64,000 nt of DNA from Polyangiaceae bacterium (GTDB lineage Bacteria; Myxococcota_A; Polyangia; Polyangiales; Polyangiaceae), in NCBI GenBank assembly GCA_947475525.1, contig CANJMI010000006.1, forward strand, positions 62,001-126,000, read 5' to 3'. The notes below the pieces were generated by a model. It searched no databases. It worked only from the letters and a program-made list of their open reading frames with translations, and was not told the DNA's origin. How positions within the stretch are numbered: position 1 is the first letter of the stretch; each line of letters starts with the position of its first letter. Below, one piece after another: positions 26,151 through 30,344 of the stretch. The position numbers and the translations under genes were made by a program.

Positions 26151-29100
26151 TCAAGGCGAAACGAAGCGCACATCGCCCTTCGGGAGCGGGTTGCCAACGC
26201 GCCACCAATTCGCGATGCGATAATCGCCGTTCACGACGATTTGCTGGGAGAAATGACCAGCGAACCCATCTTGCGGGACAACCTGGCGCGTCCACTCGTG
26301 GTTGCCAGGCGCTCCCGTTCCGATGGCGAGCACGAGGTCCCCGGTGGTCGCGTCTTGGTAGCTGACACGCAGCTCGCCGCCGGGCGTGACGAACACGTTC
26401 GCGTCGTCGCCGACGATATGGTGGCCATCTTTTGCCCCGAGGCCATCGTCGAGCAGCTCGCGGGCGAGCGCGGTCGTGCCCCCTTGCACCGTTCGGAAAA
26501 CCAGGGACTCGCTAAGGCCGTCGACGTACGCGAGATGGAGATCATCTTTGTCGCCCACCGCGAGGGAGAGGCCGATGCCCATGTCGCCGGTGTCGTTGCC
26601 TTTGCCGTCCGCACCGTCGAGCACCACGTTCGTCCAAGTGGCGCCGCTCTTCGTCGCGACCACGACGTTTCCGTGCGGCCGATCGTAGTAAGCGATGCGT
26701 GGGACACCGTCCGCGCCGACGCCCATCGAGACGTAAAGACCGACCTCGTTCGGGTAGGTTATCAGGGCGGATTTAAGGCGAACTTCGGCGCAGGTCGCGC
26801 CTCCCATGCCGTCGTCGACGCACTCGGCTCCGGAACCGCAGGTGTCGCAGCCCGTCTTTTTGGCCGCGCAAGCTCCGGTCGTGAGGCAATGCTGCGTGCT
26901 CGAGCACAAGAGCGCATTGCACGGAGTTTTTGGATCTGCGGCGACGTCCTCGAAACTCCAGCTCGCGCCCGTAGCGTCGTTGCCGGTAGCGAGGCGAACA
27001 CCGCTCGTGATGCCAGCACTCGCGGCTTCGATGAAGTGGTACGCGATCACCGGCTTTCCGCCGAGGAACTTGAGCTTGGCGTACGTGCCGTAGTCGCTGC
27101 CGGTCGCGCCGGACTGAACCGTGCTCACCGTCCAGCGCGTGCCGTCAAAATGCGCGTATTTCAGCGCGTGGTTCGTGACGTCGTAGTACGCGACACCAAG
27201 CCCGCCGCCAGCCTCGACAGCGATACTCGTCCAGAGCCCGACGTCATCGCCGCTCTCGATTTTGCCGTTGCGAAAGCCTGTCGGGTCGTACATTTCAGGA
27301 TCGACGACCTCACTCGGCTCGGTGCCGTCAACGACGACCCAGGCGACCTCACCCGTAGCCGAGGCTGCTCCGACGACGAGATCGCCGTAGCTGATGCCGT
27401 AATCCGGATCCCAATTTCCCTCGAGGTAGCCTGCCACCCAAACGCGGCCGTCCGGCGCCACCGCGACGGAGGTGTACGCGCCGACGAGCCCTGGCATGAC
27501 GACGCTGCAGTCGCCGCGCGCACGGCAGCCCGTCGCCTCAACCGTATCTTCGCTGCTGCACGAGCAGCCGGGAGCCATACCGACCGCCGCAATGAAGCCC
27601 AGGGCCGCGAGCGCTCTTGCCGCCGTCGCTACGGCACGCGCACGTGAGTGGCGAGCACGCCGGCGTGCCGCGAAGCCACCGGCTAGGGCCATGCCGAGCA
27701 CCAGGCCGAGTGCGCCTCCGCTGCGAGTGGGCACTCCCGGCTCGACCGCGCATTGGCAGCCCGACGCCGCGTTCTCCGCGACGCCGCGAATCAAAGCTTC
27801 GGTCACCGTCCCGACGTTTTCGCCTTCGTCTTTCGCTTCGACCTGAATGAAGTTCGCGCCCCCAATGGTCACAGGCTCGACGTCGAGTGCCGGTTGCCAT
27901 GCGGTCCAATCGCCCCACGCCGCGTCGCCTTCACTCTCGCCTGTGCCGAGGCGCGTGCGTACGGTGACTTCATCTCCGCTGACGAGGTCGGCCGCTTCCA
28001 CCCGTACGTGGGTCGCGCCTTCGCGCAGCACGCGGATTTCGGGCGCCATCGCGTCGACACGCAACTCGATGAGCTTCGGTTCCGGATCGAGCGACATCGG
28101 ATCGCCGACCACGCGGGAGCGAACCCACACCTTGTGTACGCCCTGGTTACGCAGGACCGAATCGGTAAGCTCGAGGTCGCGTTCCCGCGTGAAGGGATGC
28201 CACGCGCCGTTGTCGATGCGGTACTGCCACTCCAGCGCTCGCTGACCGTCATCGAGGTTCGAGCCGAGGCGGAGGTGGGCACGCGGTCCGTTGTCGGGAG
28301 TCCACGTGTCGAGGTCGAGCCCATGCGGATCGATGTCCAACGACGTCACTTCGACGCTCGTGGATGAGGACATCTTCGGTGGCGCTGCAGCCACGCCAAG
28401 CGCCGCGAAAATGCCGAGGTAGCGGTCGGTGCCTTTCGTGAGTTTGCGGAGGCCCGGCGAGCCATTGCCTTCGACAGAGTCCGGAATGTCGAGGGTGAGG
28501 CCGACGCCCGCCAGTTGCTGATTGATGTCGATCGCCTTGAGCGACCCGCCGAGCGCTCCGCCGACGAGCTGTCCAACAAGGCCTTCGAGCGCACTCGCGA
28601 TGGCGATTGGGTCATCGCGGAGGAGTTTGTCGTGGTTCGACAACACCGTCTTCGAGAGCTTGATCTCCTTTATCACCGGAGTCAGCCCTTCTGGCGTGAC
28701 GGCGAGGTTGCCTGGAACCTGGATGTCGGTGGTGACGGTCATCGCTCGGATGTACCGGTCGAGTGACCAGACGTAGAAGTCGATGGCCATCGAGTCGACG
28801 CGCACATCGAAGGTCGGATCCTTCGCGATGTCGGTGCCGTTGCCGAAGGCGATCGTCGGCGGCTTCTGAGGTCGGAGCAAGAAGGCCACGTTCGCGCCTT
28901 GCTTCTGTCGACCGAGCTCGGGCAGCGACTTTGCGCCGAGGCCGAGACCGAGAATCGTGCTCGTCACCGGGGTGCCGATCGTGTCGGCCGAGATCCCGAG
29001 ACACAGCGCCCCTGAATTGTAGATCTGCTCGAGCGCGTAGTTCGCGAAGCGCTCCGAGAGCGCGAGGCCGAAGTGCGGCGTCTCACCCATCGGCCAATCG

Positions 29101-30344
29101 GAAACCGAATTTCCGAGCAATTCATCAGGGATCGGAATCGCGGTCGGCAGCTTGCTCACAACCGGCGGCACACACGACGACGGCGGAGAAGGCTCCGCGC
29201 CGCCATACATCCCGAGGGTGATCCCCTGGCTGACTGGATTCAAGTCACCCCAGTGCTCGCCCGAGTTGTCATTGCGAACGCTCGCGCCTCCGCCTGCTAG
29301 CAGGAAGTCGAACGCGCCGGATGCGCCGCCGCTTATCCCCTGGAGCGCTGCCCCGAGATCGAGGCGACCTTCCGTGCCGAGCACGATGGAAGCGCACTCG
29401 TCCGTGTCTTTGTTGCCGTAGCGGCACACGCCTCCGACGTCTTGCGTGCCGCTCGGGCACGCGGGTACGAGCTCCGCATTGGCCTTCATGCAAAGGGCTT
29501 GGTCGATCTGGTCGGTAAGCACGCCCGATACTTGGTCGACGAGCAAACCACCGATTAAATCGAGCAACCCGTTGTAGAGCGTGGCGTCGAACCCGCCGCA
29601 GATCGTGATCGAGTTCTTGAGCTTCTCCTTGTCGATCGCGACGTCGACACCGACTTTGCTGTAGCCGTAGCGGGAGTGCTTCTGGTCCGCATCGATCGCG
29701 ATCGCGACCGTGACGTCGAGGTCGAGGTCGGCGGCGGTTTGGTCGCCGCCACACGATTGGTTGCCCGTGAGCGTGACCGCTACATTGCTCTTCGCGCAGC
29801 CGATCACCGGCAGGCAGAAGTACTCAATCGTTAGCGGGAGCTTACGGAGCCGCACGGGCAGGGGACCGGTGATCTTGAGGTTGTGCGGCGCGGTCGGTTT
29901 GAGCTTCAGCTGCGCCTTACCGAGATCGATCTCGGCGACGCATTCCGGGGGGTTCGCATCCGGCTTCGGCCCGGCTGCGCAGACGTCGTATTTGATCGTC
30001 GTGATAAGGGCGTTGAAGCTCCCACTCGTCGGAGGAATCTCGAACGCGACCACCCCGTCCTGACCGCCATTCGCCCCAAGCAACGCGCTCGCGAGCGTGC
30101 CCATGTTGCTCTCGAGGAACCCGATCCCCGTCTCGGTCAGCCGCAGCGATGCGGCATTCTCGATTCGCTGGGCAGGTTTGAATCCTTCCGCGAGCGGCGT
30201 CATTCCGCCGCAGGCGCAGCCGCTCGAGCAGCCGCCGCCGCTGCAGCCCGCCGCGATGACGAACAAGACCGCAAGCGTGACGTGCTTCGCGACGGACGCA
30301 AAAGAGCGCGCGCGCGTCCGCCGGACAACAATTCGATCCCTCAT
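26151..30344 (-). CDS. Giant lipoprotein: apparent in-frame fusion of a MYXO-CTERM protein and a second lipoprotein
   Basis: 1397 residues in one frame. An N-terminal signal peptide ends at VIAAGCSGGGCSSGCACGG, so the chain is a lipoprotein. Residues 60-850 contain beta-rich domains and an Ig-like part (WQYRIDNGAWHPF). Residues about 863-895 carry what looks like a complete MYXO-CTERM sorting signal: GCQC with C863/C865 reading CQC, a hydrophobic helix (GGALGLVLGMALAGG) and RRRAR. Immediately after comes a second signal-like helix (ALAALGFIAAVG) ending in PGCSCSS, lipobox Cys927. The remainder (930-1397) is a repeated YYD-type beta-propeller-like domain with an EGF-like cysteine cluster. So two proteins seem to have been fused in frame; an assembly or sequencing error is possible. 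Confidence 0.75.
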   Translation of the reverse strand: MRDRIVVRRTRARSFASVAKHVTLAVLFVIAAGCSGGGCSSGCACGGMTPLAEGFKPAQRIENAASLRLTETGIGFLESNMGTLASALLGANGGQDGVVAFEIPPTSGSFNALITTIKYDVCAAGPKPDANPPECVAEIDLGKAQLKLKPTAPHNLKITGPLPVRLRKLPLTIEYFCLPVIGCAKSNVAVTLTGNQSCGGDQTAADLDLDVTVAIAIDADQKHSRYGYSKVGVDVAIDKEKLKNSITICGGFDATLYNGLLDLIGGLLVDQVSGVLTDQIDQALCMKANAELVPACPSGTQDVGGVCRYGNKDTDECASIVLGTEGRLDLGAALQGISGGASGAFDFLLAGGGASVRNDNSGEHWGDLNPVSQGITLGMYGGAEPSPPSSCVPPVVSKLPTAIPIPDELLGNSVSDWPMGETPHFGLALSERFANYALEQIYNSGALCLGISADTIGTPVTSTILGLGLGAKSLPELGRQKQGANVAFLLRPQKPPTIAFGNGTDIAKDPTFDVRVDSMAIDFYVWSLDRYIRAMTVTTDIQVPGNLAVTPEGLTPVIKEIKLSKTVLSNHDKLLRDDPIAIASALEGLVGQLVGGALGGSLKAIDINQQLAGVGLTLDIPDSVEGNGSPGLRKLTKGTDRYLGIFAALGVAAAPPKMSSSTSVEVTSLDIDPHGLDLDTWTPDNGPRAHLRLGSNLDDGQRALEWQYRIDNGAWHPFTRERDLELTDSVLRNQGVHKVWVRSRVVGDPMSLDPEPKLIELRVDAMAPEIRVLREGATHVRVEAADLVSGDEVTVRTRLGTGESEGDAAWGDWTAWQPALDVEPVTIGGANFIQVEAKDEGENVGTVTEALIRGVAENAASGCQCAVEPGVPTRSGGALGLVLGMALAGGFAARRRARHSRARAVATAARALAALGFIAAVGMAPGCSCSSEDTVEATGCRARGDCSVVMPGLVGAYTSVAVAPDGRVWVAGYLEGNWDPDYGISYGDLVVGAASATGEVAWVVVDGTEPSEVVDPEMYDPTGFRNGKIESGDDVGLWTSIAVEAGGGLGVAYYDVTNHALKYAHFDGTRWTVSTVQSGATGSDYGTYAKLKFLGGKPVIAYHFIEAASAGITSGVRLATGNDATGASWSFEDVAADPKTPCNALLCSSTQHCLTTGACAAKKTGCDTCGSGAECVDDGMGGATCAEVRLKSALITYPNEVGLYVSMGVGADGVPRIAYYDRPHGNVVVATKSGATWTNVVLDGADGKGNDTGDMGIGLSLAVGDKDDLHLAYVDGLSESLVFRTVQGGTTALARELLDDGLGAKDGHHIVGDDANVFVTPGGELRVSYQDATTGDLVLAIGTGAPGNHEWTRQVVPQDGFAGHFSQQIVVNGDYRIANWWRVGNPLPKGDVRFVSP

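Follow-up and report, generated by a model that had tools for sequence, protein, structure and literature searches.

A predicted polyprotein with an internal MYXO-CTERM/lipoprotein-signal hairpin, encoded in one frame across much of Myxococcota

The window, a 64,000-nucleotide stretch of DNA from a Polyangiaceae bacterium, carries on its reverse strand (as for all features below) an open reading frame of 1397 amino acids (26151..30344) that runs in a single frame with no internal stops. From this open frame and its one-frame relatives, we consider it probable that the gene encodes a conserved Myxococcota polyprotein, i.e. one chain that is cut at a hairpin by a myxosortase and LspA to give two lipid-anchored proteins. 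The ORF starts with an N-terminal lipoprotein-type signal peptide recognizable in the sequence (residues 1-33, 30246..30344) and ending at the lipobox Cys34 (30243-30245), which is followed by an internal MYXO-CTERM-like tail (residues 861-896) and a second hydrophobic stretch leading to Gly-Cys927. The sequence-only reading had pointed to a sorting tail (863-895) with a second hydrophobic helix behind it in the same frame, and this arrangement is real: the motif PGC(927)SCSS lies 32 residues past position 895.

In the mechanism that we propose, the ribosome would synthesise a single chain, whose domain A would be exported via the N-terminal signal. Helix 1 (out-in) would halt transfer, the Arg-rich loop would be kept in the cytoplasm, and helix 2 (in-out) would act as an internal signal peptide exporting domain B, the two helices forming a membrane hairpin. 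Cys863 and Cys927, which flank this hairpin, would become lipidated; myxosortase (here MrtC) would cut just after Cys863 and LspA just before Cys927, as on any lipoprotein. This would release a 63-residue hairpin peptide (864-926) and yield two lipoproteins, predicted product A (residues 34-863, 27756..30245), carrying lipid at both Cys34 and Cys863, and predicted product B (residues 927-1397, 26154..27566). The topology, the lipidation, both cuts, the final location and the product ends are what we infer from the signals described below.

The internal MYXO-CTERM match (TIGR03901; 27654..27764) covers SGCQC with the signature Cys863 (27756-27758), a helix (helix 1, residues 876-893, 27666..27719, assigned from the sequence) and RRR. 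When excised, the tail scored 20.2 and 21.1 bits against TIGR03901 (cut-off 20). Since the same site reached 18.7 bits in a six-frame genome search and no TIGR03901 tail was listed in an hmmscan of the whole 1397-aa protein, the match in the window species is borderline. The tails of eight relatives (six internal, two terminal) all scored above the cut-off, with 25.2-35.9 bits. Thus, the profile search confirmed the MYXO-CTERM assignment of the sequence-only reading, at the cut-off for the window gene and well above it for 8/8 relatives' tails. An invariant cysteine, a helix and an Arg-rich end are present in the window gene as well as in its relatives; the tail is not at the C-terminus, as about 500 residues come after it. 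Among the 33 MYXO-CTERM matches in the own genome, 20 besides the window gene were inspected, and 17 of these terminate within 14 residues of the tail. One more is truly internal (C10, L078/L102), L088 is an improbable match without the cysteine, and L089 is a weak match with 50 residues beyond it. The second internal case of the genome (L102:1513-6648; G000:C10:202067) has a TSP3-repeat adhesin-like part, the tail and six arginines, beyond which a signal-peptide-like stretch and then a barrel-like region with more TSP3-type repeats follow; this layout resembles that of Myxococcus xanthus MXAN_5598.

The second signal comprises an Arg-rich, predicted cytoplasmic loop (residues 894-910, 27615..27665), helix 2 as the predicted internal signal peptide (residues 911-926, 27567..27614), defined from the sequence and from the alignment and parse of relatives, and the lipobox Cys927 (27564..27566), which sits 64 residues past Cys863. 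In the hairpin alignment A3 (33 rows picked from fused relatives; L052, L056, L059 and L019 are among those excluded), the MYXO-CTERM cysteine and the lipobox cysteine are the sole invariant columns, at a mean column identity of 25%. The hairpin was parsed in 88 one-frame ORFs; the 89th, L056, which stands outside the parse, has the same layout by eye. The distance between the two cysteines varies from 37 to 96 residues (median 64). Summed over the 88 relatives, the loop contains 679 R/K versus 80 D/E, with R+K exceeding D+E in every one of them, and all 88 have a basic stretch, a short hydrophobic core and [GAS]Cys, the residue before the cysteine being G in 82, A in five and S in one. The layout with two signals is therefore beyond chance, as both cysteines, both hydrophobic stretches and the net basic loop recur in 88/88 parsed relatives.

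An internal MYXO-CTERM is already in print for MXAN_5598, where it is treated as a rare oddity and an exception to C-terminal placement; the authors of PMC11980579 propose processing of its N-terminal part and suggest that two genes were fused. The view that a sorting tail in mid-protein makes no sense for one polypeptide was hence overstated, as the same paper argues that sorting tags function in mid-protein. By analogy with the proposal for MXAN_5598, the chain could be cut once, e.g. at the MYXO-CTERM alone, with helix 2 staying on domain B as a membrane anchor. This would fit the less canonical -3 residue seen in the internal lipobox, which is I/L/V/A in 35/88 relatives (A in the window gene) as against 74/86 at the N-terminal lipobox of the same proteins, where the parse gives a rough measure of length because the uncharged stretch preceding the cysteine was taken as 1 in at least one row. 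A single cut nevertheless seems very improbable to us, given that helix 2 ends in [GAS]Cys in 88/88 relatives and that a lipoprotein-like signal opens stand-alone domain-B genes: the second lipoprotein signal, internal in the fused gene, is N-terminal in five of these.

Between 17 independent close pairs, differences at codon positions 1/2/3 numbered 233/175/385 in the linker and 81/66/122 in the loop core. From the third-position excess in the linker, we conclude that, on this substitution pattern, the linker is translated. This bears on the possibility that an internal start codon yields domain B separately and that the read-through chain is incidental. Some ATG/GTG/TTG codon is present between helix 1 and Cys-12 in 50/88 relatives, and overlapping starts are used in the split forms described below, both of which are compatible with internal initiation. 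However, 38/88 relatives have no such start in this interval, 69/88 have no ATG, and the loop of the window gene has no in-frame ATG/GTG/TTG codon. Together with the coding-type substitution in the linker and the absence of a stop conserved across the phylum, this makes separate initiation of domain B quite unlikely.

The one-frame form is widespread. At the protein level, 43/59 genomes were hit when the own genome and its relatives were searched, many with a single frame of ~1400 aa; a scan of named genomes matched one relative. With a profile of the second half, 98/132 genomes of the order (E 1e-10) and 102/189 genomes drawn from the phylum (E 1e-30) were matched. Sorting the matching ORFs from 107 loci of the order gave 89 with both halves in one frame, which came from 87 genomes and eight families; the remaining ORFs were 11 truncated by contig ends, nine stand-alone halves and one piece with an apparent frame break. 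In this last one (L119, G115), the first half of the fused gene is spread over two frames, possibly due to a frameshift or an assembly error. Beyond the order, 20 loci were taken from the 36 matching genomes of the phylum-wide search; both halves were in one frame at 19 of them, and the hairpin was visible in all 19 (16 by pattern, three by eye). Judging from these frames, the one-chain architecture is conserved across much of Myxococcota.

This distribution decides between the explanations offered in the sequence-only reading, which had considered a base error that removed a stop and a recent fusion of two genes. We reject both, as single chains with a conserved middle recur throughout the order and also occur in further classes of the phylum. 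A sequencing or assembly error, an assembly join and a recent private fusion are ruled out, since 87 genomes of the order and 19/20 loci fetched from beyond it share this frame, so that we assign them a negligible probability. The comparison with relatives, which revealed the same single chain and conserved middle, counts against error and recent fusion and not against processing.

In two genomes of the order (G029 and G011), the halves are encoded by two overlapping genes, the first of which ends in the MYXO-CTERM. Gene 1 of G029 (L053) stops a few residues beyond the Arg run; the two genes overlap by ATGA in this genome and by GTGA in G011 (L040). Each of the second genes opens with a short lipoprotein-like signal of its own that ends in Gly-Cys. 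A lipoprotein-like signal also stands at the start of the stand-alone domain-B genes of G069, G070 and G072, and the stand-alone domain-A paralogues of G048 and G055 end just past the Arg run. A domain-B tree, built with a quick method and showing a long branch for L040, requires four changes between fused and split states. The G029 and G011 splits look like later fissions, since they nest in a family f1 clade whose members are mostly fused. In G222 (L182), a distant genome beyond the order, the gene is split as well, with the domain-A gene overlapping the domain-B gene by GTGA. Its A-half has no MYXO-CTERM and is thus a counter-case to the pairing of the signals.

The split forms also bear on a reading without any cut, in which helices 1 and 2 are a permanent inner-membrane hairpin bearing two periplasmic domains. 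A basic loop flanked by two hydrophobic stretches is compatible with a stable hairpin. However, the helices are free to vary and only the flanking cysteines are invariant; moreover, the existence of split forms indicates that the covalent linkage is dispensable. We therefore regard a permanent hairpin as unlikely and favor the excision of the hairpin by two cuts.

The enzymes required for the two-cut model are encoded in the genome: MrtC (NF040594, 274 bits versus a cut-off of 195) and LspA, along with GspD, the type II secretion secretin. Three separate Lgt-like genes are present (C18, C12 and C24), one of which could serve MYXO-CTERM lipidation. According to PMC11980579, MrtX cleaves MYXO-CTERM in dependence on its cysteines, and Lgt is a leading candidate for the enzyme that attaches the lipid. 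Processing into two products, the third explanation of the sequence-only reading, is thus supported, because both signal cysteines are invariant in A3, the same signals stand at true ends in split orthologues, and MrtC, LspA and Lgt are encoded; the cleavage itself is predicted from sequence. Against the two-cut model stand the window MYXO-CTERM at the cut-off, an internal lipobox that is less canonical at -3 and the G222 A-half.

Scanning the complete protein against Pfam and NCBIfam revealed no family above the cut-off, and PDB profile searches for domain A gave no match below E 0.05. A match of domain A to BPI/LBP/CETP (TULIP) proteins was obtained with one of 39 members at E 0.0045 (0.36 for the window gene), and a single-sequence structure model of residues 19-935 had a pLDDT of 35 and was unusable. 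Domain A thus represents a family for which no solved relative was found, with a weak hint at an LBP/BPI/CETP-like nature. In alignment A1 (39 rows), domain A has an invariant cysteine at each end (columns C16, the lipobox Cys34, and C845). Because of these cysteines, product A may be lipidated at both ends (30243-30245 and 27756-27758). Product B is a predicted Cys-containing, beta-propeller-like lipoprotein. BNR_4 was matched in 3/38 relatives, and the low-confidence structure model of domain B matched sialidase and lectin propellers. Since this model is weak (pLDDT 51.5), we treat the propeller matches as a lead.

A search of 40 genomes of the order with the hairpin profile detected, among the matches listed, other large stop-free frames with a full hairpin. 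Examination of 14 such frames or near-misses among these matches showed that 11 continue for 149-1520 residues beyond the hairpin and three are ordinary terminal tails. A Pfam scan of nine of the eleven (L191 and L194 were left out) identified vWA/MopE-repeat/FGE-sulfatase, DUF4114-BNR, FG-GAP, nidogen-like and Peptidase M2 proteins; for L185, no Pfam family was above the cut-off. In L184, L186, L187, L191 and L194, the internal MYXO-CTERM/lipobox hairpin is followed by a VDPFCLxC-type motif, and the three of them that were scanned (L184, L186 and L187) have MopE metal-binding repeats and FGE-sulfatase domains, with a vWA match in two. In L190:2445-5423, the hairpin precedes a full, in-frame Peptidase M2 (angiotensin-converting-enzyme-like) domain of 600 residues. 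The presence of full hairpins in other large stop-free frames of several families suggests that the hairpin is a recurring device rather than a single freak. Extending this, we tentatively propose, at a little under an even chance, that an excisable MYXO-CTERM/signal-peptide hairpin is a general Myxococcota device used in several unrelated families, where one cut by myxosortase and another by a signal peptidase would let each ORF supply equal amounts of two surface-anchored proteins, the first product being lipidated at both ends in the present case.

The window gene shares the signature cysteine, helix and Arg cluster with the MYXO-CTERM/myxosortase system (TIGR03901, MrtX, MrtC), whose MrtC is present in the genome; this signal is usually a C-terminal tail, whereas here it is in mid-protein and paired with a lipoprotein signal. 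In Bradyrhizobium japonicum, the cytochrome b/c1 precursor FbcH is a single bacterial chain from which cleavage at an internal signal sequence produces two exported proteins; in contrast to the cuts proposed here, signal peptidase acts on one side only, and the proteins are unrelated. MXAN_5598 and TraA/TraB, both named in PMC11980579, are similar systems too. MXAN_5598 has, like the window gene, a secreted N-terminal part, an internal MYXO-CTERM and a second exported part in frame, but there an outer-membrane barrel and OmpA domains make up the second part, whereas the window gene has a propeller-like protein behind a lipobox, in an arrangement conserved across classes. In TraA/TraB, a MYXO-CTERM protein is also directly followed by a second exported protein, encoded however in two overlapping ORFs and not in one frame. 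A limited literature search found neither a MYXO-CTERM paired with a lipoprotein signal nor wide conservation of such a pairing; within this search, three points look new, namely how widely the arrangement is conserved, its pairing with a lipoprotein signal and the occurrence of hairpins in other families.

Polyproteins are uncommon in bacteria, and it would be unusual for two different membrane proteases to resolve one of them at a hairpin that they share. Such polyproteins would be natural substrates for testing what myxosortase reads and whether a tag functions in mid-protein. They would also bear on whether Lgt lipidates the MYXO-CTERM cysteine, an open question in PMC11980579. Finally, such chains may be taken for single odd proteins when genes are annotated or surface proteins are counted in Myxococcota.
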